Part shown: piece after piece, positions 3,123 through 14,660 of the stretch
Numbering within the stretch: the stretch's first letter is position 1
Layout of the letters: each line of letters starts with the position of its first letter
From: Aminiphilus circumscriptus DSM 16581
GTDB lineage: Bacteria > Synergistota > Synergistia > Synergistales > Aminiphilaceae
DNA: 64,000 bases
Direction of reading: 5' to 3'
NCBI RefSeq assembly: GCF_000526375.1
Contig: NZ_JAFY01000007.1
Coordinates: 62,001-126,000 of the forward strand
Translations under genes and position numbers: made by a program
Notes under the pieces: generated by a model
What the model was told of the DNA's origin: nothing
The model's input: the letters and a program-made list of their open reading frames with translations, nothing else
Database searches by the model: none

Positions 3123-4922
3123 TCAGTTCCTGCCCGTCCCTTCCCCCGCTGTTCCGTCTCCGTCCGTCCCGGCGCTCCGGATCCCTTTCCGGTTCCTGTA
3201 TTTCCTCACCGACAGGATCTCCGTGTTCCCCAGTCCCCGGACGAGGCCCAGGGAACGGTAGATCTTCCGGGCGCTCTCGCTCATGGCCTTCGGGAACCGG
3301 TAGAGTTTCCCCGTCTCTTCGTCCTTCATGAGGGTGGACTGGACATCCAGCAGGGCGGTCCGGATGGCCCGGGCGCTCATCACCGCGTTCTGCCGGACCG
3401 CCACTCGGTGCTGGAGATGCCGGAGGAGGGCGAAGGCGAGGTAGGTGAGGGCTATGTGGGCCTCGATCCTGCGGGGTACCCAGTGATAGACAGGGCGGAT
3501 GGAGAGGTCGTGCTTGTTCACCCGGAAGGATTCTTCGATGCGCCACAGGCTCCCGTAATGGGCGAGGATGTCCTGCGCTTCCGCGGCACTTTCCGCGGGC
3601 AGGTTGGTGATGACTCCGTGAAGGCCGTCCCACCGGCTGTCCCGGAGGATCTTCTCTTCGTCCAGGATGTAGCGGTCCTGTCCGTTTGAATTTTCAAGGG
3701 AGAGGTATTTGTTCGTTCCCCGGTTGGTGACAAGGCTTTTTCCCGGAAGAGTCTTCTTCCCCTGCAGTTTTTTCCGCAGTCGGGCCAGAAGCCGTTCCCG
3801 GTCGGAGGCGTCCTTCCGGGCTCGCCGTTCACTCCAGGTGACGAGCAAATTTCTCCCGTTTCCGAGGGGGACGGAGTACCAACGGGAAGGGCTGCACGTT
3901 TCTCTCTCACCCTCCGGGAAGACAGGCGAACCTCCGGGCAGGGGGGAGTAGTTCCCGGCGTCCAGGATTTTCTCCCTCATGGTCCGGCTGAGACCCCGGA
4001 GTTTCGCTCCCACGACGAAGGAGCATCCCGCCTTCTCCACTTCGTGCAGGTTCTCTTCCGTGAACATGGCCCGGTCCGCCACCACCACCGCCTGCCGGGG
4101 GGAGAAGGTCTCCATGCATCTCCTGAGCACAGGCACAAGAGTATGCCCTTCAAAGGTGTTTCCCGGGAAAAGGTCGTACCAGAGGGGAAATCCTTCCGGC
4201 GTCACCGCCAGGGCGAGCACCACCTGGGTCTCCTGTATCCTGTTGTCCTTGCTGTACCCCGACACCCTCAGGGCATCCGCCTCAAAGCTTTCGAAATAGA
4301 GGGTGGTCACATCGAAGAGCAGCAGCGACGCCTTCGTCTCGAAGAGGGACGCGGTCTCCCGCGCCACGATCTCCCTCACCCGGTCCGTCTTCTTCGCCAG
4401 GGCGTCCATCATTCGGTAGATCCTGTTCAGCGACATGTCCGTCCCGCCCTCGTCCTCCAGCCAACGGGACATCCCCCGCTTGCTCGAAGGATTGGCGAGG
4501 GCGCAGGCGAGGCATTTCTTCAGGACTTCCGTGTTCCCCTTCCCACGGCTGGATACCCCGAAGATCGCCTCGAAGCCCAGGGAGGAGAACAGGCTCTCCA
4601 CGACTTCCCCCGGCCCTTCCGTCACCTGTTCCAGGTTCTTCATCCCCCGGAGGCTGACCCGCTCCCCGTCCCCGACCGGCCGCTCCCACGCCTCTTCGTT
4701 CTCGAGGAGGGAGAACCCCGGAAGAGAGGGCTGCTCTCTCTCCTCCATCTCCAGAATGAGCTTCCGCCCCAGTTCCCGGAGCTCGGAGAGCTGCTTCTCG
4801 TCGTGGGCTATTCCCACGTGCTGGAGAATGACCTGGGAGACCCGTTTCCCGGTGCGGACGGATTTGACGATCTGGACTGATTTTCGCGGACTGAGCTTTG
4901 AGGATTTCACCCGGATATACAT
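3123..4922 (-). CDS. IS4/IS1634-type DDE transposase
   Basis: A cut-and-paste DDE transposase of 599 residues when started at ATG 4922 (an in-frame TTG at 4949 would add nine). The catalytic core is visible in order: LLLFDVTTLYFES (first Asp), VVVADRAMFTEENL (second Asp) and YGSLWRIEESFRVNK, which carries the Y-(2)-R-(3)-E-(6)-K signature of the IS4 superfamily, with E as the third acid. The N-terminal 150 residues, with LQHVGIAHDE, are as in IS1634-type enzymes. The frame has no break and the length is full. The start codon lies in the loop of a perfect hairpin (4911-4939), which may hold translation down. Confidence 0.93.
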   Translation of the reverse strand: MYIRVKSSKLSPRKSVQIVKSVRTGKRVSQVILQHVGIAHDEKQLSELRELGRKLILEMEEREQPSLPGFSLLENEEAWERPVGDGERVSLRGMKNLEQVTEGPGEVVESLFSSLGFEAIFGVSSRGKGNTEVLKKCLACALANPSSKRGMSRWLEDEGGTDMSLNRIYRMMDALAKKTDRVREIVARETASLFETKASLLLFDVTTLYFESFEADALRVSGYSKDNRIQETQVVLALAVTPEGFPLWYDLFPGNTFEGHTLVPVLRRCMETFSPRQAVVVADRAMFTEENLHEVEKAGCSFVVGAKLRGLSRTMREKILDAGNYSPLPGGSPVFPEGERETCSPSRWYSVPLGNGRNLLVTWSERRARKDASDRERLLARLRKKLQGKKTLPGKSLVTNRGTNKYLSLENSNGQDRYILDEEKILRDSRWDGLHGVITNLPAESAAEAQDILAHYGSLWRIEESFRVNKHDLSIRPVYHWVPRRIEAHIALTYLAFALLRHLQHRVAVRQNAVMSARAIRTALLDVQSTLMKDEETGKLYRFPKAMSESARKIYRSLGLVRGLGNTEILSVRKYRNRKGIRSAGTDGDGTAGEGTGRN

Positions 4923-4939
4923 AAAGGAAGTATATCCGG
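4911..4939 (-). promoter_or_regulatory. Inverted repeat enclosing transposase start codon
   Basis: CCGGATATAC (4911-4920) and GTATATCCGG (4930-4939) are perfect 10-bp complements with a 9-base spacer. On the mRNA of the minus strand the ATG spans the loop and stem, so folding would hide it. This resembles the start-site sequestration used by several insertion sequences to limit expression from outside promoters; that role is inference. Confidence 0.55.
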
Positions 4940-5065
4940 AGAAAGACAATATGCCAATAGGGCAAATATGCTAGGCACTACATTTTGATTTCCGGCTTCC
5001 CGATCTTCTGAACCCCCATGAACACTGCATCCCTTTTTTCAAAATCCTTGTTTTCTCGGGAAAAA

Positions 5066-5078
5066 CGGCGAAGTCGGG
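5066..5078. repeat. 13-bp inverted repeat, right arm
   Basis: CGGCGAAGTCGGG, the exact reverse complement of 2928-2940. It immediately precedes the right antirepressor copy. Confidence 0.85.
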
Positions 5079-5205
5079 GAAAAAGGCATGGCACGGGAGA
5101 GCGCGCTTTAGGTGTTCGGGTACGAGGGGGAAGAGGTCCGAACGGTTCTGCGGAACGGGGATCCGTGATTTGTGGCGGCGGATGTGTGCGTGGTGTTGGA
5201 GATCA
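5078..5205. repeat. 128-bp direct repeat, right copy
   Basis: Identical to 2800-2927. This copy is joined to the rest of the antirepressor gene, so it is the original position and the left copy is the duplicate. Confidence 0.95.
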
Positions 5206-5616
5206 GTAACAATCGGGATGCCATGGGAACGCTCGACGACGATGAAAAGGGCGTCGCCATTACCGACATCCTTGGAGGAATGGAGCCTCTGAATAAGGCC
5301 GCGTCAGCCCCGAAAGTGCCTCGCAGAGCTTGATGCGACCCGAGTCAAGGGAAAGCGAAAGACCTTTATTCAGAGCTTCCGAATGACTATCATCAACGAA
5401 TCTGGCCTCTACTCCCTGGTTCTCCGCTCGCGCATGCAGGGGCTCTCGAAAACGATAAAGGGGCTCGTTGGGGTTGCGGCGAGCGTACAAGCGATTCGTG
5501 CCCTGGGTACTTCCTTCATCAACGCTGCCACTCAAATGGAAGGATACCAGACCAAACTTCGCGCCGTCATCAAGGACTCCTCGGCCGCGGATAAAACCTC
5601 CGTTTTGGTTGGATAG
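5088..5616 (+). pseudogene. Phage Bro-N antirepressor joined to tape-measure fragment, multiply disrupted
   Basis: Antirepressors of this type lift prophage repression. From ATG 5088 the frame meets TAG (5109) and TGA (5166), then reads FVAADVCVVLEISNNRDAMG and DDDEKGVAITDILGG, a textbook Bro-N domain. At 5282 a 99-bp element interrupts it. Removing the element and one GAAT copy restores the frame exactly into MTIINESGLYSLVLRSR, the Bro-N hallmark. After about 5430 the sequence changes to LSKTIKGLVGVAASVQAIRA and INAATQMEGYQTKLRAVIKD, typical of the N-terminus of tail tape-measure proteins, ending at TAG 5614-5616. So a deletion fused two distant phage genes. This marks a decayed prophage. 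Confidence 0.85.
5282..5380. mobile_element. 99-bp MITE-like element in antirepressor gene
   Basis: The ends GGAGCCTCTGAATAA (5282-5296) and TTATTCAGAGCTTCC (5366-5380) are near-perfect 15-bp terminal inverted repeats. GAAT occurs directly on both sides (5278-5281 and 5381-5384), a 4-bp target duplication. Removing the element plus one GAAT rejoins GGA GGA ATG ACT in the antirepressor reading frame, direct proof of insertion. It encodes nothing and would need a transposase supplied elsewhere. The terminal sequence resembles that of some IS5-group elements (from memory, not searched). Confidence 0.85.
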
Positions 5617-5645
5617 TAACTTTGGTGTCCGATATTTTCAACGTA

Positions 5646-5732
5646 CCTCATGGCGCACATGGCTTCAAGCGATGAAACGGCGTTTCGGTACGGGGTATTC
5701 AGTGTGGCGACTGTTGCGGACAGAAATATCAA
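5646..5732 (-). pseudogene. Integrase 5' fragment of older element
   Basis: The first 29 codons read ATVATLNTPYRNAVSSLEAMCAMR, aligning with AAIATLNTPYRDAHAALDALCSIR of the intact integrase at 13533-14456. Homology also extends upstream through the leader hairpin and terminator to the tRNA-Val. Beyond 5646 the gene is deleted and replaced by unrelated sequence. Placement relative to the tRNA is identical to the intact copy, so this is the integrase end of an earlier element inserted in the same tRNA. Confidence 0.88.
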
Positions 5733-5767
5733 TCTCCTTTCTTTTCGCGGGTGCGAACGGGAGATTG
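5730..5767 (-). promoter_or_regulatory. Integrase leader hairpin (decayed copy)
   Basis: CAATCTCC (5730-5737) can pair with GGAGATTG (5760-5767). In the minus-strand RNA this covers the AAAGGAG ribosome site of the integrase fragment. The inner TTCG/CGAA pairs are also kept. The same arms occur in the intact copy at 14463-14500, while the loop bases differ. Confidence 0.6.
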
Positions 5768-5807
5768 TGAGGATGAAGAGTGGCGTTTCTGAACCGCTTC
5801 CCTATGC

Positions 5808-5840
5808 AAAAAAACGGCTCCGACGAAAACGCCGAAGCCG
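5808..5840 (-). terminator. Terminator after left tRNA-Val
   Basis: On the minus strand a GC-rich stem (5815-5825 with 5830-5840, AAAA loop on the plus strand) is followed by seven T. It would end transcripts reading out of the tRNA before the integrase fragment. Confidence 0.7.
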
Positions 5841-5848
5841 GTAAAAAT

Positions 5849-5927
5849 CACATGGTGGGCGACACAGGGCTCGAACCTGTGACCTCTTCCGTGTGAAGGA
5901 AGCGCTCTTCCGCTGAGCTAGTCGCCC
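5849..5927. repeat. 79-bp direct repeat, left attachment site (tRNA-Val copy)
   Basis: Identical to 14582-14660 and made of the whole tRNA-Val plus four bases past its CCA. The two copies are the ends of the integrated element between them. Confidence 0.9.
5853..5927 (-). tRNA. tRNA-Val (anticodon CAC), attachment-site copy
   Basis: Read on the minus strand this is a complete cloverleaf with a 7-bp acceptor GGGCGAC, loop TTCACAC (anticodon CAC), T-loop TTCGAGC and encoded CCA. The sequence equals the copy at 14586-14660. No -10/-35 pair like that of the right copy lies upstream of it (5928-5975), so it may depend on read-through or be silent. It was created as the duplicate end of the integrated element. 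Confidence 0.93.
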
Positions 5928-5937
5928 GTGACGGAAC

Positions 5938-5975
5938 CAGTATCCATCAGTATCCGAAGTAGTGGAGGGTTCCAC
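5938..5975. promoter_or_regulatory. Tandem CAGTATCC boxes next to attachment site (possible integrase arm sites)
   Basis: CAGTATCC occurs at 5938-5945 and 5948-5955, a 10-bp period, directly inside the element from the left attachment repeat. A small inverted repeat, GTGGA...TCCAC (5962-5975), follows. Short tandem boxes at this place are typical of integrase arm-binding sites, but no binding evidence exists. Confidence 0.35.
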
Positions 5976-6070
5976 AATCTCCCGCTGTAGCTCTTCCCTA
6001 TCGGAAAAAACCTAGCGCGTGATTTTCAAGGTTCGTGCGGAAATGTCAACCATGTAGCCTAACTTTTAAC

Positions 6071-6101
6071 GACGCCTGACCTATCAGGGGCGTCTTTTTT
6101 T
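6071..6101 (+). terminator. Hairpin terminator inside left end of satellite
   Basis: GACGCC and GGCGTC, with inner CCTGA/TCAGG pairs, fold around CCTA and are followed by seven T on the plus strand. It lies just past the stop of the minus-strand cargo gene. It can also fold in that direction, where the tract after the stem is less U-rich. Confidence 0.65.
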
Positions 6102-6105
6102 GTGG

Positions 6106-7104
6106 TCAGAATTCGTCCACGAGAAATTCAGTCTTTCCCTTTCGACCGGGTTTTATCTCCCGTCCCCTAGCTTCCGCTTTTTTCTGAGCATTTTTCTGCT
6201 GATAAAACCGATGTTTCATTCCGGGATGATAAAGCCTTCCTTTATGAGGACCAGCCTCCCGAACAGCAAGGTCCTCTTCCTTGAAATAGAATCCCGATAC
6301 GAAACACCTGCGTGGTTGGGTCTTGGAAGGTCCGTCATGAAAAAAAGCCTGACTTGCCTGGAGCCAAACAGCGGCTAAAAGGTTTTCAGGCACAAAGACA
6401 GATCGGGCGGAATCGCCATAGAGTATCCGTTGTGGAGTAGAGGGGTATCGCTTGGTCATCCGATTGAAAAAAACCACAAGCCCCCGATATACCGTCCTTT
6501 TAAGGGTCTCTCCAACAACTATTGGGATTTTGATGTTTTCCCCCTTTGATTCGGCGTGGATTTTTAGGATAACACTATCCTTGAAACGCGAGATATAACC
6601 GGAGAGGTCTTTGCTGTCGTCGTGGTCTCCGATTAATCGGAGAGCTGCGCGCACAAAAGAAGCCTCTAGTTTCCATTCGGAGACCGATTCAAGCCGCGCC
6701 GCTTCGATCTGTCCATTTTTCCCGAAGTCAAGTGGAATCCCTGGACGCAGCGGACCAAACTCCGAAGCGAATGTCAAAATTTCCTCGTCGCTCTCAAGTT
6801 CAGCGAACCTCTGGAAAAAGGCTTTCGGAAAATCCTTTTTTCTCCCTCTCCCCTTACCCTTTTCTTCCTCCTCAACAAAATAAGCATTTCGAGCTGTAAT
6901 CCGTCGCCCTATTGGAAGGAGGAGCAGACCGGGCGCTTCTCCTTCACGAGGAAGGACCTTCGTATTTGGAACCCCCTTTACAGGAAGAAAATCCCCGTCA
7001 ACGACTTCGCCGCTCTCGACCAGCCGGTATCCCCTCTCGGGCTTGGCATTGAAAAAAACTCCCTCTGTCGGTGGGTCAAGATATTCGGTGGACAGTTCTT
7101 CCAC
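6106..7104 (-). CDS. Hypothetical satellite cargo protein with C-terminal zinc-finger-like region
   Basis: Function not recognised; 332 residues. The GTG at 7104 is preferred because GGGAGG lies 7 bases upstream (a TTG at 7119 opens the frame). A middle block contains EILTFASEFGPLRPG and WKLEASFVRAALRLIGD. The C-terminus has RRCFVSGFYF...RLYHPGMKHRFYQQKN, laid out like the C-x-x-C...Y-C-x-x-x-C-R finger of a family of mobile-element proteins, but with most cysteines replaced. The tail is strongly basic. The gene stands alone beside the left attachment site and is transcribed away from the Xre regulator, the usual place for satellite cargo such as anti-phage functions. That role is a guess from position. 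Confidence 0.6.
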   Translation of the reverse strand: MEELSTEYLDPPTEGVFFNAKPERGYRLVESGEVVDGDFLPVKGVPNTKVLPREGEAPGLLLLPIGRRITARNAYFVEEEEKGKGRGRKKDFPKAFFQRFAELESDEEILTFASEFGPLRPGIPLDFGKNGQIEAARLESVSEWKLEASFVRAALRLIGDHDDSKDLSGYISRFKDSVILKIHAESKGENIKIPIVVGETLKRTVYRGLVVFFNRMTKRYPSTPQRILYGDSARSVFVPENLLAAVWLQASQAFFHDGPSKTQPRRCFVSGFYFKEEDLAVREAGPHKGRLYHPGMKHRFYQQKNAQKKAEARGREIKPGRKGKTEFLVDEF

Positions 7105-7145
7105 CCTATTCCCTCCCAAAAAAGATGACCATGTTTCCTACTCGA

Positions 7146-7174
7146 ATTATATATATACGTCTGTAGAATTGCAA
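7146..7174 (-). promoter_or_regulatory. Promoter of cargo gene in divergent regulatory region
   Basis: On the minus strand TTGCAA (7169-7174), a 17-bp spacer and TATAAT (7146-7151) form a near-perfect sigma-70-type promoter driving the 6106-7104 gene. The 7105-7303 interval is AT-rich and separates it from the Xre gene, so it is the probable switch region. TTGCAA is self-complementary, so it could also serve as a -35 toward the Xre gene, but no good plus-strand -10 follows. Confidence 0.7.
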
Positions 7175-7303
7175 GTGGGAAATAACAGAATACGTGCCGA
7201 AGCCGTACCGGACGCAAGAGCGGCAAGCCGGGAACCAGACAAGAGCGGAAAACCGCCTTCGTGTGACAACCGGGGGACTAGAAAGCATGAAGGATGTGAG
7301 GAC

Positions 7304-7510
7304 ATGGAGACGAAGATTAAAGCCGTTCTCAGGGAAAAAAGGATGACGGTTCATCAGATGCACAGGGAAGTCGGCGGGAATAGGGCTTATTGCTACCAGG
7401 TGGTTTCTGGCTTTTGCCGGGCAACGCAGCCAATGCGCGAGCGGATAGCTTTAGTCTTCGGGCTGCCGGTAGACGAACTTTTCGACGAGAACGGCATGGC
7501 GAGAAAGTAA
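7304..7510 (+). CDS. Small Xre/Cro-type helix-turn-helix regulator
   Basis: A 68-residue DNA-binding protein. The helix-turn-helix spans about residues 11-45: AVLREKRMTVHQMHREVGGN then YCYQVVSGFCRATQPMRERI, followed by LALVFGLPVDELFDEN-like Xre ending (here VFGLPVDELFDEN). Such small Cro-like proteins set the state of phage and satellite switches. It is the first gene of the plus-strand operon and faces the divergent cargo gene across about 200 bases. ATG 7304 follows a GAGG box. Confidence 0.8.
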   Translation: METKIKAVLREKRMTVHQMHREVGGNRAYCYQVVSGFCRATQPMRERIALVFGLPVDELFDENGMARK

Positions 7511-7581
7511 TGCCGCCTTCCGGCTGCAACCGGGAGACGGCGTTTTCTGCCCCGTTGGACGGGGAGAAAGGAAGAATTGAC

Positions 7582-7677
7582 ATGAAGATTATATCACGCT
7601 CTGAAGTCTTGATGAACAGCCTGTTCGTGATCATCGCCGTAGTTGTGGGGGTTGTGCTTGATGCGCTGCTTTTATAA
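7582..7677 (+). CDS. 31-residue single-span membrane peptide
   Basis: A very short gene supported by a strong ribosome site (AGAAAGGAAG, 8 bases before ATG 7582). The peptide is a charged head, KIISRSE, then one hydrophobic span, SLFVIIAVVVGVVLDALLL. The last 17 bases overlap the start of the next gene, suggesting coupled translation. Such peptides can be toxins, holin-like or regulators; nothing here decides which. Confidence 0.5.
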   Translation: MKIISRSEVLMNSLFVIIAVVVGVVLDALLL

Positions 7678-8128
7678 CGCAAAGGGTATCGTCTTCGCTC
7701 GCCTGGACGATGACGGCGTTCTCCGCAAAAGCGAGCGGCAACGGGACAGGTTGAGGGTCACCGGCGGACGAAGCCACGCCATTGACGAGAGTCTGTTGGA
7801 TGAAGTCCTCCGGTCAGGAGGGAGGCTCCTCGAAATCACAGAGAAGGGAATCTCCGGCGAGACGCGGATATTCAGAATCCCGCTCGAAGATGTCCGACGC
7901 TACGGAAAGCGGCTGACGCTCGCCGGGATATCCCGTTGGACTGTTCCGCTCCCATGCTGCGAACTGGTCAGAGGACCGGAAGAGGAGTGGCGGCTGACCG
8001 CCCGCAATGAGATGTTACAGGCGGAGACCCGCCGGGATGAGGTGCAGGAAATCCGCGCCGTCCAGGGGATGCTTTTTTCCGATGAGGAAAAGTCGTACTG
8101 GCGGACCAGGATGGTGCATGAGTCATGA
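7661..8128 (+). CDS. Hypothetical satellite protein
   Basis: A 155-residue soluble protein not recognised by family. The ATG at 7661 is inside the end of the preceding membrane peptide and the stop overlaps the primase ATG by 4 bases, so it belongs to the replication operon. It contains a strand-rich N-half (IVFARLDDDGVLR) and a charged helical C-half (ARNEMLQAETRRDEVQEIRA). Position suggests a role near replication control, but that is inference. Confidence 0.6.
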   Translation: MRCFYNAKGIVFARLDDDGVLRKSERQRDRLRVTGGRSHAIDESLLDEVLRSGGRLLEITEKGISGETRIFRIPLEDVRRYGKRLTLAGISRWTVPLPCCELVRGPEEEWRLTARNEMLQAETRRDEVQEIRAVQGMLFSDEEKSYWRTRMVHES

Positions 8129-8967
8129 GGGCAATACAAAACATCGCCCCCCATGATCTTGTGGATCGGATCAGGTCAAACGTCCCGGAGGAATTGCAGG
8201 ACCGGCGGCAATGGTGCCTGTGGAAGATTGGCGGAGACAGGAAGATTCCTTTGTCACCCTGGGGCGGATATGCGAGCTGCACAGACCCCAAAACTTGGGG
8301 AACCTTCGACCAGGCGGAGGAGGTGTTCCTCAAAAACGCCAATGTCTGCCGGGGCTTCAATCTGGCAATGGGCGACGGTCTCGCCGGCATGGATCTTGAC
8401 GACGTAGTTACAGGCGGGACCGTCTCGCCGCTGATGACGCTGTTTTTGAACCACCTGGGTAGCTACACCGAATTCTCACCAAGCGGGACGGGACTGCATA
8501 GTTTTTTCCTGTGTGACCGGGAGCATGAGAATAGAAAAACCCATGCCGTCGAACTCTATTTTCAGGCGCACTTCCTGAGTGTCACAGGTGATGTCTTCGA
8601 GGGACGGGACCGGCTGCGGACGGCTGACGTTGGAGCGGAACGAATCCTGACGGCACTCCGACCACGGAAGCCCTTATTGCCCCGCGTCCCTCTGAAGGAG
8701 ATCCCGGAGAGCGATTCCGAACTTCTGGAAAAGATGTTTGCCTCCAGGGTGGGCGGGAAGATCCGCCGCCTGTGGGACGGGGAATGCTGCCACAAGACGC
8801 CATCGGAGAGCGACATGGCTTTAATGGGGTACCTGGCGTATTGGTGCGGCGGGAACACGGACCGGATGATTTCCCTTTTCCTGACCTCGGCTCGGGCTGA
8901 GAGAGCGAAGGGACAGAGGGCAGACTACTTGCAGCGGATGGCGGGAAAGGCGGCGCGGAACCCATGA
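8125..8967 (+). CDS. PrimPol-type primase-polymerase with helix-bundle domain
   Basis: Predicted replication initiator, 280 residues. The N-terminal part carries the archaeo-eukaryotic primase pattern, with LAMGDGLAGMDLDDVV (catalytic D-x-D) and YTEFSPSGTGLHSFF (the S-x-x-G-x-H motif). From about residue 225 DMALMGYLAYWCGGNTDRMI and a following basic helix match the NrS-1 polymerase-like helix-bundle domain found in many phage primases. It overlaps both neighbours by 4 bases (ATGA), so it is tightly coupled to the helicase gene. Together they can replicate the excised element. Confidence 0.85.
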   Translation: MRAIQNIAPHDLVDRIRSNVPEELQDRRQWCLWKIGGDRKIPLSPWGGYASCTDPKTWGTFDQAEEVFLKNANVCRGFNLAMGDGLAGMDLDDVVTGGTVSPLMTLFLNHLGSYTEFSPSGTGLHSFFLCDREHENRKTHAVELYFQAHFLSVTGDVFEGRDRLRTADVGAERILTALRPRKPLLPRVPLKEIPESDSELLEKMFASRVGGKIRRLWDGECCHKTPSESDMALMGYLAYWCGGNTDRMISLFLTSARAERAKGQRADYLQRMAGKAARNP

Positions 8968-10361
8968 CGGAAGCACTACTCGAAGAAGAAATCATCCGTG
9001 AACCCACCATTGCAGACCTGCTCGGCGACGTCCACAGAACCGACGTGGGGAACGCCTCCAGGCTCGCCTTCCTTCACGGAGACAAGCTGCGATGGAGTCC
9101 ATCCCTGGGATGGTTGCGCTATAACGGCAAATATTGGGAGACCTCGGATGACGTGATGGTAGCGGGATACGCTCGCGACGTGCCGCGTCAGATTCTCGAA
9201 CAGGCTGCGGAATCCGACGAGCCGGGGCTCCGGTCCCTTTTGTGTGAATGGGCGATTGAATCAGAGAAGAATTCTTCCATTCGGGCAATGGTGAACCTGC
9301 TGAAATCTGAACCGGGCATCAGGGTTGAAGCCGACGCCCTGGACAGGAACCCATGGCTGTTGAACGTTAGGAACGGAACCCTGGACCTGAAGACCGGAAA
9401 GCTGCTCTCCCATAACCCCGGTGATCTGATAACAAAAATGGCGGGGGCATCCTTCGATCCCGACGCGCAATGCCCCCGGTGGGAGCGGTTCATCCTGGAG
9501 GTGATGGACGGGGACGAAGACCTCGCCGGGTATCTTCGGCGGTTCTCCGGGTACACATTGACCGCTTCGACGAAGGAACAGGCATTCCTTTTCTTCAGCG
9601 GCATCGGCGCGAACGGGAAAGGGCGTTTCGTTGAAACACTCGCCCATATCCTGGGCGACTACTCCGCGCCTCTCTCACCTGCGGCGCTCACCGTGAAATA
9701 CGGAGACTCAACCACCAATGAATGGGCGGGGCTGCGGGGAATCCGGTATGCCTACTGCGGAGAAATCGAGCCCGGAAAGGTCCTGGACTCGGCATTAATC
9801 AAAACACTTACGGGAGAGGATACGCTGAGAGTGAGGCATCTTTACAGGGAATATTTCTCCCTGAAGCCCACCTTCAAATTAACCTACTCGGCAAACGGGC
9901 AACCGAAGGTACGGGATACAAGCTATGGCTTTTGGCGGCGCTGCAAACACGTCCCTTTCAACGTCTCGTTCTCCGGTGAAAAGCGAGATCCCCACCTACA
10001 GGAAAAACTCAACGCCGAAGCGAGCGGAATACTGAACTGGTGTCTGTCTGGACTGAGTGAATGGCTTTCCGGCGGTCTGAAGGAGCCCGGCATCGTCTCA
10101 CAAGCAACAAAGGAATACAGGGACGATCAATCGGTGATCCGGGCTTTTCTCGACGACATGACCACAAAGATTCCCGGTCATTGTGTCCCGCTCCAAAAGC
10201 TGCACGAAACCTTTCTGGAATGGGCGAAAAGGAACGGGGAGCGGAACCTGTCGAACAGGGCTCTAAAGAAGGAACTGGAGCAAAACGGCGTTACCACGAA
10301 GAGAGGGGTAATCGGCGTCCTGGCTGAAAATATCGGGATTCTGAACACGGAAGAGGAATAG
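8964..10361 (+). CDS. D5/P4-family replicative helicase (SF3)
   Basis: A 465-residue superfamily 3 helicase of the phage/plasmid P4-D5 group. Walker A is FFSGIGANGKGRFVETL (about residue 208), with Gly after the invariant Lys in place of Ser/Thr, a variant known in this group. Walker B is AYCGEIEPGK (about 263). The SF3 motif C region is TYSANGQPKVRD (about 309). The D5_N domain precedes it (GWLRYNGKYWE, NVRNGTLDLKTGKL), and a winged-helix-like C-terminus follows. It acts as a ring helicase at the element's origin, with the primase encoded just upstream. Confidence 0.92.
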   Translation: MTEALLEEEIIREPTIADLLGDVHRTDVGNASRLAFLHGDKLRWSPSLGWLRYNGKYWETSDDVMVAGYARDVPRQILEQAAESDEPGLRSLLCEWAIESEKNSSIRAMVNLLKSEPGIRVEADALDRNPWLLNVRNGTLDLKTGKLLSHNPGDLITKMAGASFDPDAQCPRWERFILEVMDGDEDLAGYLRRFSGYTLTASTKEQAFLFFSGIGANGKGRFVETLAHILGDYSAPLSPAALTVKYGDSTTNEWAGLRGIRYAYCGEIEPGKVLDSALIKTLTGEDTLRVRHLYREYFSLKPTFKLTYSANGQPKVRDTSYGFWRRCKHVPFNVSFSGEKRDPHLQEKLNAEASGILNWCLSGLSEWLSGGLKEPGIVSQATKEYRDDQSVIRAFLDDMTTKIPGHCVPLQKLHETFLEWAKRNGERNLSNRALKKELEQNGVTTKRGVIGVLAENIGILNTEEE

Positions 10362-10365
10362 GGGC

Positions 10366-10466
10366 ATATGACGGAATGACGGAAATCTTCAATTTTAGTA
10401 AAACGGAAAAAAACGCACGTAAGGAGCACTTTCCTAAAAATGAAGAAAATCGTCATTCCGTCATAT
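10366..10466. repeat. Inverted repeat with TGACGGAA units, candidate satellite origin
   Basis: ATATGACGGAATGACG (10366-10381) and its exact reverse complement (10451-10466) face each other across 69 AT-rich bases. Weaker pairing continues inward (TCTTCA/TGAAGA). The left arm holds two direct TGACGGAA units and the right arm inverted copies, like iterons. It lies right after the helicase gene in the 10362-10546 gap. An origin or a regulatory hairpin both fit. Confidence 0.55.
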
Positions 10467-10546
10467 TAAATCTTTTTTAACTGGAGGGCTTGGAAGATGG
10501 GAAGGACAAAAACATCCCCTGTGTCCACAGCAGGGGGAGGAAAGTG

Positions 10547-10702
10547 ATGCGCTACCTTCAGATAGAGGAAAGGCTAGCTGACGGATATATCTGTCCCTGG
10601 AGGAATTCGGAGTGCCTGGGGATGAACTGCATGTGTTGGTATCCAAGCGAGGACCTGGACGGTTTCGGAAGATGCGGGCTTGTGCCCGGCGAGGAGGATT
10701 GA
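10547..10702 (+). CDS. Small Cys-rich protein
   Basis: A 51-residue product not recognised. ATG 10547 follows GGGGGAGGAAAG, a strong ribosome site. Cysteines occur in a C-x6-C-x4-C-x-C...C pattern (YICPWRNSECLGMNCMCWY, then RCGLVPG), which suggests a bound metal. It stands between the candidate origin and the terminase gene. Confidence 0.55.
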   Translation: MRYLQIEERLADGYICPWRNSECLGMNCMCWYPSEDLDGFGRCGLVPGEED

Positions 10703-10848
10703 CAAAGAGCCGGGCGCGTCCCTTCCCTTCCTCGGGGGAGGGTGGTAGGGGGGGGCGGTTCAATCCCTGGAGAGCGTGTCCGACGTCCACGCGGCGGGGA
10801 GACGGGCGGAATTTTTTGATTGGATTATTAAGGGGGGTTTAGTCCTTT

Positions 10849-11322
10849 ATGGCGCGATTGAAAAAGAATGCAGCATTGCGAATACTCGAAGGAGTGCCGG
10901 GACAAAGCCGGGTTGCTCCTGTGGTCGAAAAAGGAGAGGTCCCGGAGTGCCCGGAATGGTTAACCGGTATTGCCCGGGAAGAATGGAACCGGGTTGCCCC
11001 TGCGCTTCATGCGGCGGGATTGCTGACCGGGTTGGACGTATCCGCGCTTGAAGGGTATTGTGCTTGTTATGGGAAATGGCGGGAAGCTGAGCAACGGCTT
11101 GCCGATGAGGGGCTGACGATACTCACTCCGAACGGCTGCGTACAGGCGCATCCATGCCAAAGCATCTCGAACCAGGCACAAAAATTGTTGCTCGCCTGGA
11201 CAAAAAACTTCGGGTTGTCTCCCGACAGTCGGGGAAGGATGGAACTGCCGCCTGCGCCGCCGGCAATGGATGAGGATTCCCTTTTCCTAAAAAAACTCAT
11301 GGACCATACGCCGGGGAGGTAA
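10849..11322 (+). CDS. Phage terminase small subunit, P27 family
   Basis: The small terminase selects the DNA to be packaged. This 157-residue protein has the P27/Terminase_4 layout: an N-terminal basic part, the PECPEWLTGIAREEWNRVAP segment (about residues 33-52), LDVSALEGYCACYGKWREAE, and the closing GLSPDSRGRMELP. In full phages a large ATPase subunit follows at once; none is present here. A lone small terminase is the device by which many satellites redirect a helper phage's packaging motor, which is the likely use here. AAGGGGGG lies 12 bases before the ATG. Confidence 0.88.
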   Translation: MARLKKNAALRILEGVPGQSRVAPVVEKGEVPECPEWLTGIAREEWNRVAPALHAAGLLTGLDVSALEGYCACYGKWREAEQRLADEGLTILTPNGCVQAHPCQSISNQAQKLLLAWTKNFGLSPDSRGRMELPPAPPAMDEDSLFLKKLMDHTPGR

Positions 11323-11429
11323 ACTTACCCCCTTACCCAAAAGGCGCGGAGACGCGTTCCTGATTCCAGGGCGGCGGTTTATGAAATGGAGGTCCTGGAG
11401 ATATGACCTCCCCCCCTGGGGTATAATCA

Positions 11430-11897
11430 ATGCAACTCTGTTGCACGGAGGTGGCGCTCATAAGGAATCCCTTCTTGGCTTGTGCGGAGCGCAGCCTCCG
11501 ACTGTATCCGACATGGAACAAGATAAAGTCGGAGGTGGAGCGGGAACTCCGGCGGGCTTCCCTTCCCGGGGGTTTCTCCTCCGGGACGAAGGTCCAGGGA
11601 GGGGAGCACGCGCCGCAGCAGGAGCGCTATCTCGAACGCCTTGACAGTAATTCCCTGTTGTACCGGCTGAACAGGAATTGTGAGCTGGTGGAGAGAGCGC
11701 TCCGGGAGTTGACGGACGAAGAGCGGGAGTTTGTTGACCTGTTCTGGTGGCGTGACCTCACCTGTGATTACGGCTCTCATGAACAGATCGTTGGTAGGGA
11801 ACTCGGGATTGCTGATCGGTCGGTCTGGCGGTGGCGCCGGCGTATCCTGGAGAAGATAGAGCCGTCCCTCCGTGGGATCGATCCTGGGGTAAGGTGA
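11430..11897 (+). CDS. RinA/ArpU-like late transcription regulator
   Basis: The C-terminal half reads CELVERALRELTDEEREFVD followed by RELGIADRSVWRWRRRILEK, the sigma-4-like helix-turn-helix layout of RinA/ArpU phage late-gene activators. The N-terminus is uncertain: ATG 11430 has no ribosome site and lies just after TATAAT (11422-11427), which would start RNA inside the frame. A GTG at 11451 follows a GGAGGT box too closely. In phages this family turns on packaging genes; in a satellite it might respond to, or act on, a helper. Residue count is 155 from the first ATG. Confidence 0.65.
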   Translation: MQLCCTEVALIRNPFLACAERSLRLYPTWNKIKSEVERELRRASLPGGFSSGTKVQGGEHAPQQERYLERLDSNSLLYRLNRNCELVERALRELTDEEREFVDLFWWRDLTCDYGSHEQIVGRELGIADRSVWRWRRRILEKIEPSLRGIDPGVR

Positions 11898-11902
11898 GGA
11901 TA

Positions 11903-12253
11903 ATGTCTCCTTCAGGCATTGAATTCCTTGAGCATTGCCGGGCAGTCTACCAGGGCAAAATAGACCGGTTCCTGTGTCCCGAATTCGAGAAGGCTTTCCG
12001 TGAATATGCTGAATCCATAACCGCCCCGCAGTTTGGGGAAAGGGTGCAGCGGTCCAGGACCTCGGAACACGCGGAACGGTTCACAGACATGCTGCTCGAA
12101 TTCCATGGAGAGCGGGACCGGCGGGTGGAGGAATACCAACGGCTCATTGACCGGATAGATGACGTCCTCGAAGGGCGGGCAGGGGAATTCCTGACGGGAT
12201 CGGCGGCGCTGAAGTGGGTACGGGGTGAGGACGAAAAAAGCCCCTCGGGATGA
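11903..12253 (+). CDS. Hypothetical satellite protein ending in its own terminator
   Basis: A 116-residue mostly helical, charged protein (SEHAERFTDMLLEFHGERDR, then QRLIDRIDDVLEGRAGEF) not recognised. ATG 11903 follows GGTGAGGA. Its TGA stop (12251-12253) lies at the loop edge of the terminator hairpin, so the last codons double as the stem. It is the final gene of the plus-strand operon. Confidence 0.6.
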   Translation: MSPSGIEFLEHCRAVYQGKIDRFLCPEFEKAFREYAESITAPQFGERVQRSRTSEHAERFTDMLLEFHGERDRRVEEYQRLIDRIDDVLEGRAGEFLTGSAALKWVRGEDEKSPSG

Positions 12254-12261
12254 GGGGCTTT
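12237..12261 (+). terminator. Terminator of satellite plus-strand operon
   Basis: AAAGCCCCTC (12237-12246) pairs perfectly with GAGGGGCTTT (12252-12261) around a 5-base loop that contains the start of the stop codon of the gene above. Together with 12433-12455 it separates two convergent operons. Confidence 0.8.
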
Positions 12262-12332
12262 CTCCCGTGTTGGTCGCACCGACGAACACGTAGCCGTCAA
12301 AGAGAGAGACAGCCGCGCTCCCCAAGGAAAAT

Positions 12333-12360
12333 CGGGTTTGTCAATAAATGACAAAACCCG
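12333..12360. repeat. Hairpin between convergent operons
   Basis: CGGGTTTGTCA (12333-12343) pairs with TGACAAAACCCG (12349-12360), with one bulged A and a 5-base ATAAA loop. No clear U-tract on either side; possibly a second, weaker stop signal. The 12262-12526 interval has no gene. Confidence 0.5.
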
Positions 12361-12432
12361 AAAAGCGCCGCCGAAGAGATAGCCGCCCCTCAGTTTGAAC
12401 CTTAGCAAACCTTAATAACTCCCCAAGGAAAA

Positions 12433-12455
12433 GAGCCTCCCGGCGCAGGAGGCTC
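12433..12455 (-). terminator. Terminator of minus-strand small-gene operon
   Basis: GAGCCTCC and GGAGGCTC form a perfect 8-bp stem with a 7-base loop, followed on the minus strand by TTTT. It lies downstream of the gene at 12527-12751. Confidence 0.7.
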
Positions 12456-12526
12456 CTTCACCTTGCGGCGAAAAATAACGGTTCGTTACTTTTGCTCCTT
12501 CCCCTTGTGGGACAGTATCACCGCCG

Positions 12527-12751
12527 TCAGTCCAACGGATAGACCGCCTCCATTCCATGAGCCTTTCTGTAGACGTTCTGCCCTCGGCAGACAATGGGCG
12601 TTATCCAATGTTCCGGGTGGCGCCGCGCCACGGCTCCAAGGATATGTTCAATCTCAATAAGCCGCCTGGTGTTCCCTGCTGCCTTGCACCGTTCATATTC
12701 CCGACCCAAGCGGACCAGAAACACTTGCACCATCATAGGCAACGGCTCCAT
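12527..12751 (-). CDS. Hypothetical satellite protein
   Basis: A 74-residue basic helical protein (FLVRLGREYERCKAAGNTRR) not recognised. ATG 12751 follows AAGGAGGATC, an excellent ribosome site. Last gene of a three-gene minus-strand operon that ends at the 12433-12455 hairpin. Confidence 0.6.
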   Translation of the reverse strand: MEPLPMMVQVFLVRLGREYERCKAAGNTRRLIEIEHILGAVARRHPEHWITPIVCRGQNVYRKAHGMEAVYPLD

Positions 12752-12773
12752 GGTGATCCTCCTTCCTTGGGCG

Positions 12774-13055
12774 TCATTCCAGCCTCGGCGGGACGTTCAT
12801 TCCATGGATATACTGGTAATCGTCGCCGTCCTCAGTCTCGAACCACTGCCGGTAAAAATCGGTGTAGGCGTGCGGTTCCCCGTCGTTTGTGGCGCTTCCC
12901 GGTAGAGTGAATTCCCCGGACGGGGCTTCATCCTCGAACATCGCGAGCATGGCGCGTTTATCGGCGGCGCTGCCGACGCAATATTTCCAGTGCTGTTCCA
13001 TCCAATTGAAAAAATGATCCGCGTTGACGTTGTGATCCGTAATGGTCTGGATCAT
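12774..13055 (-). CDS. Hypothetical satellite protein
   Basis: A 93-residue acidic protein not recognised, with aromatic-rich ends (HFFNWMEQHWKYCVG, and AYTDFYRQWFETEDGDDYQY). Acidic small proteins in phage elements are sometimes DNA mimics or antitoxins, but nothing here shows that. The start lies one base after the stop of the upstream gene, and AGAGG precedes it. Confidence 0.55.
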   Translation of the reverse strand: MIQTITDHNVNADHFFNWMEQHWKYCVGSAADKRAMLAMFEDEAPSGEFTLPGSATNDGEPHAYTDFYRQWFETEDGDDYQYIHGMNVPPRLE

Positions 13056-13056
13056 C

Positions 13057-13368
13057 TCAGGCGTCCTCTATCAGGTCCGAAAAGTACTCCGCATAATCCT
13101 CCGGTTCAAGGTGTTCCTGTGCCCACTGAAAAGCCTCTTCCCTCGAAAGGGGAGTGATAGCCTCGCCACCGGCGGTGGCGTTGCCGTGGCTTTGGGCGTA
13201 GTGCGATTTCGCGCCGCCACTACCCGCAAGGAAGAAATTTCCCTTCGAGGTGAGGTACAGCTTTTCCTCGCAGTACTCGAAGTCGGACGTCGAATAGCCG
13301 TTCCACCATGTGCCAATTTCCTGCGATGTTTCAGTGCGATACAGTTTTCCTCCGATGATTCTTTTCAT
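13057..13368 (-). CDS. Conserved mobile-element small protein (function unknown)
   Basis: A 103-residue protein of a type I recognise from Firmicutes-like mobile elements. It begins with MKRIIGGKLYRTETSQEIG, continues with WNGYSTSDFEYCEEKLYLT and FFLAGSGGAKSHYAQ, and has a C-terminal acidic EEAFQWAQEHLEPEDYAEYF. No biochemical role is known to me. ATG 13368 follows AAAAGGAGG. It heads the small minus-strand operon; 13369-13532 is non-coding. Confidence 0.6.
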   Translation of the reverse strand: MKRIIGGKLYRTETSQEIGTWWNGYSTSDFEYCEEKLYLTSKGNFFLAGSGGAKSHYAQSHGNATAGGEAITPLSREEAFQWAQEHLEPEDYAEYFSDLIEDA

Positions 13369-13532
13369 ACTGTGATTCCTCCTTTTATGTGATGTCCCTC
13401 TCGTGGGACTTGAACCCGATATACCCTCCAGGACACGCCAGAACGCCCCCAGAAGCCTTCCCTCTCTTTGAGGGGTATGATTCATCCTCTTAGGGTAAAA
13501 TAAACGCTCCTGAGGCGTTCTGCGGGGTCATT

Positions 13533-14456
13533 TTACGCCTTCCTCCTCCGCCGGTTCTCCAGAACACCGGAGACGACCGCCGCTTTCCCATGGGCAGCCT
13601 GGAGATCATGCACGTCGAGATGTTCGTAAAATTTCGCAGTCGTTGAAATCGAGGCATGACCAAGTAGGGCAGCGGTCAGGGCAATATTCCCTGTGTTCCT
13701 GAGGAATTCCGTTGCGCACAAATGACGAAGACCGTGAATCTTCATCCGCTCGCCTATGCGGTCAGATACCCTGCGGATCTGATATCCGAAGACGGACGGG
13801 TTTAGCTGCCCTCCGGTCTCGGTTGGAAACATCCAGGAAGATCGCCACTCCGGCAGCCTGAGACCGATAAACCGCTTAACCTCCCTTCCCACCTGTGGCG
13901 ACACAGGGACAGTTCTTCCTGTGCGCGTCTTGCTTGTCTCCGGTCGAACGGTGAGGAGGAGAGCATGGTCGTCGAAGTCTTCCACCTTGAGACCGCACAA
14001 CTCGCCTCGACGAAGACCCGTATCGAGGGCAAGGAGGAACATGGCGTACAGGCGACGCTCCCCATACCTGGAGAGATCTAGGGCATCGAGGAAGGCTTTC
14101 ACGTCCTCCAGGGCGGGAATATCTTTCCGCTTGCCCGGCACAGTACACTTGATGTTTTTCATGGGCGTATCCTCGAAGATTCCCTCTTCCACGAGAAACC
14201 GACAGAAGACCTTCAGAACCTTTATCCTGGTAAACCGGGACCACTCCTTTTCCGGTTCGGAGATGAACGGCAGTATTGCCGCTCTCGGGTTCTGGAGAAA
14301 TTCGGGATATTCTCTGAGGAACGGCTGAAGGATATTTCGATACAGGGCAATGGTGTTCGGTGATAATCCTTCGGCTTTCCTGATGGAGCAGAGAGCATCG
14401 AGGGCGGCATGGGCGTCACGGTACGGGGTGTTTAGCGTGGCAATGGCTGCGGGCAT
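13533..14456 (-). CDS. int: Tyrosine site-specific integrase of the satellite
   Basis: Catalyses integration and excision at tRNA-Val. The 307-residue protein has an N-terminal SAM-like core-binding domain (GLSPNTIALYRNILQPFLRE, residues about 30-50). The catalytic domain shows Arg in DTGLRRGELCGLK, Lys in SKTRTGRTVPV, H-x-x-R in MKIHGLRHLCATEF, His in ALLGHASISTTAK and nucleophile Tyr in FYEHLD. ATG 14456 is taken as the start. TTG 14465 is possible, but AAAGGAGA would then abut it. The gene reads away from the right attachment site, and its ribosome site is covered by a conserved hairpin. Confidence 0.95.
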   Translation of the reverse strand: MPAAIATLNTPYRDAHAALDALCSIRKAEGLSPNTIALYRNILQPFLREYPEFLQNPRAAILPFISEPEKEWSRFTRIKVLKVFCRFLVEEGIFEDTPMKNIKCTVPGKRKDIPALEDVKAFLDALDLSRYGERRLYAMFLLALDTGLRRGELCGLKVEDFDDHALLLTVRPETSKTRTGRTVPVSPQVGREVKRFIGLRLPEWRSSWMFPTETGGQLNPSVFGYQIRRVSDRIGERMKIHGLRHLCATEFLRNTGNIALTAALLGHASISTTAKFYEHLDVHDLQAAHGKAAVVSGVLENRRRRKA

Positions 14457-14462
14457 GATTAT

Positions 14463-14500
14463 CAATCTCCTTTCTTTTCGAGGGTACGAACAGGAGATTG
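14463..14500 (-). promoter_or_regulatory. Leader hairpin hiding integrase ribosome site
   Basis: CAATCTCC (14463-14470, which is GGAGATTG on the RNA) pairs with GGAGATTG (14493-14500). The RNA stem therefore contains the integrase Shine-Dalgarno bases. An inner TTCG/CGAA helix extends it. Both helices are kept in the older copy at 5730-5767 although neighbouring bases differ, which supports a selected structure. Confidence 0.65.
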
Positions 14501-14540
14501 TCAGGTTTGGGAATGTTGTTTCTGTAGCGCTTCCCTATAC

Positions 14541-14573
14541 AAAAAAAGGGCTTCTGCACATTTGCAGAAACCC
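14541..14573 (-). terminator. Terminator after right tRNA-Val
   Basis: GGG-TTCTGCA arms (14548-14558 with 14563-14573) fold around CATT and are followed on the minus strand by seven T (14541-14547). It stops tRNA transcripts before the integrase. Confidence 0.8.
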
Positions 14574-14581
14574 TGTCATTG

Positions 14582-14660
14582 CACATGGTGGGCGACACAG
14601 GGCTCGAACCTGTGACCTCTTCCGTGTGAAGGAAGCGCTCTTCCGCTGAGCTAGTCGCCC
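14582..14660. repeat. 79-bp direct repeat, right attachment site (tRNA-Val)
   Basis: Identical to 5849-5927. This copy has the tRNA promoter upstream, so it is the original target gene. Confidence 0.9.
14586..14660 (-). tRNA. tRNA-Val (anticodon CAC)
   Basis: Complete cloverleaf on the minus strand: acceptor GGGCGAC paired with GTCGCCC, anticodon stem CTTCC/GGAAG with loop TTCACAC (anticodon CAC), T-stem ACAGG/CCTGT, discriminator A and encoded CCA. A consensus promoter lies 14 bases upstream and a terminator downstream, so this is the working copy. It is the integration target of two successive elements. Confidence 0.95.

Follow-up and report, generated by a model that had tools for sequence, protein, structure and literature searches.

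The window analysed here is a 64,000-nt stretch of contig NZ_JAFY01000007.1 of Aminiphilus circumscriptus DSM 16581 (Synergistota; genome G000), and its subject is an element of ~8.7 kb integrated at a tRNA-Val(CAC) gene. The element is bounded by two 79-nt repeats, 100% identical and 8733 nt apart, each consisting of a complete minus-strand tRNA-Val(CAC) plus 4 nt. A preliminary description, made from the letters of the window, had reported these identical tRNA-containing repeats with an integrase next to one of them, and both observations hold. It had also listed an integrase, a primase, a D5/P4 helicase, a P27 small terminase and a RinA/ArpU-like regulator, without large terminase, capsid, tail or lysis genes, a gene set now confirmed by Pfam and PHROG profile matches and, for the primase and helicase, by PDB matches. 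No large terminase, head/capsid, tail or lysis family was matched by any scanned open reading frame (ORF) of the element in Pfam or PHROG, and the core ORFs are all intact. Its 'Xre' switch gene encodes a 68-aa helix-turn-helix (HTH) protein with no more than weak, sub-threshold matches (E about 1e-3). The features are as follows (att, attachment site; TerS, small terminase).

5652-5848, minus strand: scar left by an earlier, related element (start and end of its integrase; repeat D1), outside the present element
5849-5927, minus strand: left att repeat, on the u337 side, containing a complete tRNA-Val(CAC); 100% identity to 14582-14660
6106-7119, minus strand: u337, family-specific, in the repressor position; present in 4/4 elements; promoter-like TTGCAA-17-TATAAT at 7174-7146
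7304-7510, plus strand: small HTH regulator, divergent from u337; HTH_35 (E 1e-3) and PHROG transcriptional regulator (E 7e-4), both sub-threshold
7643-8128, plus strand: o161, accessory protein with a conserved C-terminal QxxLF (QGMLF/QGVLF/QLGLF/QGVLF, 4/4 elements)
8125-8967, plus strand: primase, NrS-1/AEP type; NrS-1 HBD domain PF22763; PDB 7rr4/6a9w primase, E 1e-23 to 1e-24
8964-10361, plus strand: D5/SF3 helicase, replication initiator; D5_N PF08706, E 3e-32; PDB 7ola, E 2e-24
10366-10466, no strand: putative replication origin, ATGACGG iteron pairs in inverted 37-nt arms; the element's best inverted repeat
10547-10702, plus strand: 51-aa Cys-rich protein after the origin; no database match
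10741-10848, plus strand: cos-like packaging block, GGTGGTAGGGGGGGG ... ACGGGCGGAATTTTTT ... AAGGGGGG
10849-11322, plus strand: TerS, P27/Terminase_4 type; PF05119, E 4e-24; phrog_83, E 8e-37
11430-11897, plus strand: ArpU/RinA-like late regulator; phrog_36, E 1.8e-12
11903-12253, plus strand: o116, conserved in the related element L036 (87%)
12527-12751, 12774-13055 and 13057-13485, minus strand: three small ORFs, no significant family matches; the last 75% identical in L036
13533-14465, minus strand: tyrosine integrase; PF00589, E 3e-27
14547-14574, minus strand: intrinsic-terminator-like hairpin, brought in behind the tRNA; terminator-like sites overall are no more numerous than in shuffles
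14582-14660, minus strand: right att repeat, tRNA-Val(CAC) with the native promoter side; promoter TTGCAA-17-TATAAT at 14702-14674

A structure-free element family and its empty sites

A helicase search covering 188 Synergistota genomes found three close relatives, one in G000 itself and two in species of another family. The second G000 element, L037 (G000:C5:424001-444000), lies at tRNA-Val(TAC) between 123-nt repeats 10,074 nt apart; L036 lies at tRNA-SeC between 139-nt repeats in G024, a species of a different bacterial family; and L038 lies at tRNA-Thr in G043 (Synergistaceae bacterium isolate LM3-B12.1, record L086). With the relatives' genes called by a longest-ORF rule rather than a trained gene finder, the core order u337, o161, primase, helicase, integrase is common to all four elements, and no structural genes are present in L036, L037 or L038. 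The preliminary description had proposed searching related genomes for the same gene set, with structural genes of the same element in relatives pointing to a deletion derivative; the search instead gave three relatives, each at a tRNA gene and likewise without structural genes, so the window element is not a lone deletion derivative. L037 spans 3664-13882 of its record and is interrupted near 6767-7997 by an IS3-type insertion, and L038 has an extra serine recombinase.

The proposed check for empty sites was also positive. The congener G017 is without both G000 elements, and both sites are unoccupied. At the L037 site the flanks meet in exactly one copy of the 123-bp repeat, base-perfect, while at the window site G017 has a single tRNA-Val(CAC), with 93% identity on the right flank, which is colinear, and 97% on the left flank from 5651 outward. 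The tRNA copy at 14586-14660 retains the native promoter side, and the element thus brings its own full tRNA copy. The G+C content is 49-58% within the element vs 60-64% outside. Outside the left repeat, the 197-nt scar at 5652-5848 has 75% nucleotide identity to the present right end; it is what remains, at the integrase end, of an earlier relative that was deleted, and is missing from G017. Adjoining it, window 5078-5651 contains a fusion of BRO-N antirepressor and tail tape-measure fragments, siphophage remains beside tRNA-Val. Because this debris is common to G017, which is element-free, it predates the element and lies outside it. G017 retains ~1.6 kb more of the debris, including a tail-chaperone-like ORF. 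Also beside the site, window 3123-4949 contains a 608-aa ORF reading like an IS1634/IS4-type transposase, absent from the colinear flank of G017, and inside the element, 13396-13425 (minus strand) is a short tRNA T-arm-like stretch called as a tRNA by neither ARAGORN nor Rfam.

Comparison of the window element with L036 gives 92% identity for the helicase, 90% for the primase and 86.5% nucleotide identity over 3 kb of replication DNA, vs 67% for a host protein adjoining the element (G000 and G024) and only 32% for the integrases. Judging from these values, the replication module moved laterally between bacterial families, while the ends were swapped. The window integrase is 80% identical to that of L038. 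For genes shared with G024, dN/dS is 0.13-0.27, indicating purifying selection on the core genes. Most known tRNA integrations use the tRNA 3' end. In L036 (5400-5538) and L037 (3686-3808) it is the 5' part that holds the insertion, and since both elements carry this part of the tRNA with ~70 nt upstream, they appear to give the tRNA a new promoter.

Two genes set the family apart. The u337 protein is 23-40% identical to its three relatives, and among the 188 genomes occurs only in the G000 and G024 elements, plus a weak match in G043; a divergent regulatory region (7120-7304) separates it from the HTH gene. An assignment of u337 by fold was abandoned, the AlphaFold model from four sequences having a pLDDT of 68 and no PDB match. 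The QxxLF of o161 resembles a clamp-binding motif, suggesting that the protein may contact the beta clamp. A PD-(D/E)XK-like fold for o161 was considered and not used (weak matches with E > 0.01, TM ~0.36, catalytic residues not conserved). Viral-contig scans contained no relative of u337 or o161, and an IMG/VR search for closer viral relatives of the helicase, TerS, o161 and u337 gave distant matches or none. Within the genome and viral-contig collections searched, the family is apparently confined to Synergistota. The IMG/VR contig L089 (IMGVR_UViG_3300035701_005486), 9 kb, contains an integrase, an AlpA-like HTH, a primase-helicase (35% identity to the window helicase), a large terminase (TerL), a capsid protein and a tRNA-Thr, and looks like a capsid-forming phage-inducible chromosomal island (cfPICI).

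Replication and putative packaging modules

The best PDB match of the helicase is 7ola, which is presumably the primase-helicase of the Staphylococcus aureus pathogenicity island (SaPI) SaPI5, and the primase matches NrS-1-type primases. SaPI5 PriRep1 has an AEP plus SF3 architecture (PMC10516667). In all four elements, the inverted repeat that scores highest over the whole element starts from a few to ~15 nt past the helicase stop, a place corresponding to that of the replication origin of phage-inducible chromosomal islands (PICIs), immediately 3' of rep (PMC6092414). The arms of this putative origin contain ATGACGG-type iteron pairs in three elements and GTGAAGA-type pairs in L038, so the architecture is kept and the sequence changed.

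The block lying about 105 nt upstream of terS has the form GGTAGGGGG(G) ... CGC(G/A)AAATT ... AGGGGGG and is probably a cohesive-end (cos) site. GGTAGGGGG is found within 160 nt upstream of 5/9 P27 terS genes, and upstream of at most 1/9 in 2000 shuffles. The block also occurs next to the ends of the records of two phages, Geobacillus PK5.1 and Gordonia Bunnybear, in which the first end carries terS and the last end HNH. A matrix built from the phage sites alone has its best match in the window element at 10741 (score 21.7); it scores 24.9 upstream of terS in G025 (best of 30 shuffles 22.9) and 23.1 in L038 at 11198 (20.6), with nothing above shuffles in L036 or L037. The binding site of HK97 TerS lies next to an A-tract, 15 bp downstream from the cut (PMC11331095), and GGCGGAATTTTTT in the window block may occupy a comparable place.

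TerS homologs in Synergistota prophages are directly followed by TerL, portal, protease and capsid genes, several having an HNH-like gene just upstream. The HK97-type prophages of G061, G009, G006, G107 and G043 share with the element a P27 TerS (33-44% identity) and, in several, a G-rich upstream block, but unlike the element have the TerL and structural genes after terS. L036 and L037 have neither a P27-type terS nor a cos-like block above background, so the family does not conserve packaging; L036 7743-8012 (89 aa, HTH start only) is at most a candidate Nu1-type TerS. An island at tRNA-Pro in G025 (contig C37; L053 8138-12451, L054 1834-6945), probably another satellite, encodes a TerS with 74% identity to the window one but no adjoining TerL; no att repeats of this island were found before the contig end. 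Its replication genes are of a DnaG/RecA-type primase-helicase, unlike those of the window element, and the packaging gene thus moves between islands that are not related.

Since the element has neither HNH nor TerL, a helper would have to supply both. A check for a matching terminase in a co-resident prophage, proposed in the preliminary description, found none in the host genome, and with no HK97-type helper resident in G000, a superinfecting phage would be expected. In G043, L038 with its cos-like block coexists with a P27/TerL prophage that has this block too, and this pair is the best natural candidate for a satellite and its helper.

Nature of the element and rival readings

Together, these observations support a real phage satellite in tRNA-Val(CAC), PICI-like in mode, rather than a dying prophage, with a probability of roughly 85%. 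The element is apparently able to excise and copy itself, and very probably travels in helper-phage particles. In the proposed cycle, a helper phage would relieve the divergent u337/HTH switch at 7120-7304, and the integrase would recombine the two tRNA copies, releasing a circle. Replication of this circle by the primase and SF3 helicase, together with the replisome of the host, would start at the iteron origin (10366-10466), and o161 might dock on the beta clamp. TerS encoded by the element would then bind the cos-like block at ~10741-10848 and, with helper TerL and HNH nuclease, direct concatemers into helper procapsids.

Several points weigh against this reading. No xis, Stl or AlpA was recognised in the window element; its empty site in G017 is not base-perfect, differing by the older scar; its cos score is barely above the highest value from 30 shuffles (21.0); of the four elements, L036 and L037 are without P27-type terS and without a cos-like block above background; and no helper was identified, G000 being without TerL_ATPase PF03354, Terminase_6N PF03237 and HK97 capsid PF05065. 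The last of these, together with the 200-nt scar to which an earlier relative at this site was reduced, would fit a satellite that once worked and was stranded when no helper was left in the lineage, a sub-case that is unlikely given the intact core ORFs, identical att repeats and low dN/dS. SaPIs and phage-inducible chromosomal minimalist islands (PICMIs) are moreover inducible by infecting phage, so a resident helper is not needed (PMC6092414, PMC10803314).

Derivation by deletion from a siphovirus prophage, which kept early genes and terS and lost its TerL, structural and lysis genes, might be suggested by the remains of antirepressor and tail tape-measure genes immediately beyond the left repeat, by the phage late-region appearance of a P27 terS beside an ArpU-like gene, and by the commonness of these helicase and TerS families in phages. 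These remains, however, are not enclosed by the repeats and also occur in the element-free G017, while at other tRNA genes three relatives have this core, again without structural genes, the genes are intact and under purifying selection, and u337 and o161 are without viral-contig relatives. This origin is mostly refuted by the relatives, and is very unlikely. Slightly less likely still is a non-viral integrative element, plasmid-like or a defence island, with another transfer route and phage genes merely kept: the two elements lacking P27 terS and the cos-like block would be in keeping with it, as would the serine recombinase of L038, but no relaxase or conjugation gene is among the matches, a defence-system scan of the accessory genes gave nothing beyond one marginal match, and TerS and ArpU belong to the packaging and late functions of phages.

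A probable satellite family in Synergistota

Of the 'PICI/P4-like' label in the preliminary description, the PICI-like part is retained with respect to mode, whereas the P4-like part is not. P4-like satellites resemble the element in having an integrase at a tRNA gene and a primase-helicase, but its scanned ORFs have no psu, delta, sid or epsilon match (PHROG/Pfam), and its helicase is closest to 7ola, not P4 alpha. PICIs are defined by the lack of structural and lytic genes, a primase and initiator followed by the origin, family-exclusive genes, helper induction and packaging, divergent regulators, an int gene beside the master repressor in the same direction, and an att site never used by prophages (PMC6092414). 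The element has no structural or lytic genes, and its primase and initiator are followed by an origin (by sequence only); u337 and o161 are exclusive to its family and not shared with known PICIs. The divergent u337/HTH pair is present, with int at the opposite end. Phage debris adjoins tRNA-Val in G000 and G017, with no prophage att shown there. Because the linear map does not place int beside a repressor, and Stl and AlpA homologs are missing, the element is classed not as a PICI but as a PICI-like satellite belonging to a new family.

Gram-positive PICIs and SaPIs (SaPIbov1, pac; SaPIbov5, cos) share with it the divergent regulators, pri-rep-ori order, origin 3' of rep, terS downstream, lack of structural or lysis genes and site-specific integration (PMC6092414). 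By contrast, the element is 8.7 kb vs about 15 kb for SaPIs, has its att between the u337 gene and int with int at the far end, has no Stl homolog, combines a P27/HK97-type TerS with a cos-like site, and carries the new genes u337 and o161. In SaPIs of the pac type, TerS goes with a pac site, whereas those of the cos type have cos and retain just the 3' part of terS (PMC5052747); a title cited there reports cos packaging with phage-encoded HNH nucleases for a SaPI. Gram-negative PICIs, such as the cos-packaged EcCICFT073 (PMC6092414), and PICMIs are likewise small and site-specific, with integrase, regulator, primase-helicase and origin, whereas the window element lacks AlpA, has its own TerS, is transcribed divergently rather than unidirectionally, and comes from an unrelated host phylum. 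Unlike a cfPICI (contrast L089), it is without capsid genes and TerL of its own. It is possible, at somewhat less than even odds, that the family is a separate, Synergistota-restricted lineage that reached the PICI lifestyle independently, with a u337 switch or interference function, a clamp-docking o161, its own P27 TerS and cos, borrowed TerL and HNH, and free exchange of packaging and integration modules among its members.

Well-studied satellites belong to a few groups (Firmicutes cocci, Enterobacteria, Vibrios, Streptomyces). No report of phage satellites in Synergistota was found in the open-access literature searched, and the family is previously unreported. The family has four members, two of them in a single genome, and has passed from one bacterial family to another; it extends satellites to Synergistota. 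A P27 TerS and cos-like site of its own, without HNH or TerL, gives a direct, testable prediction of the eligible helper phages, and the family offers a test bed for switches of packaging strategy in satellites.

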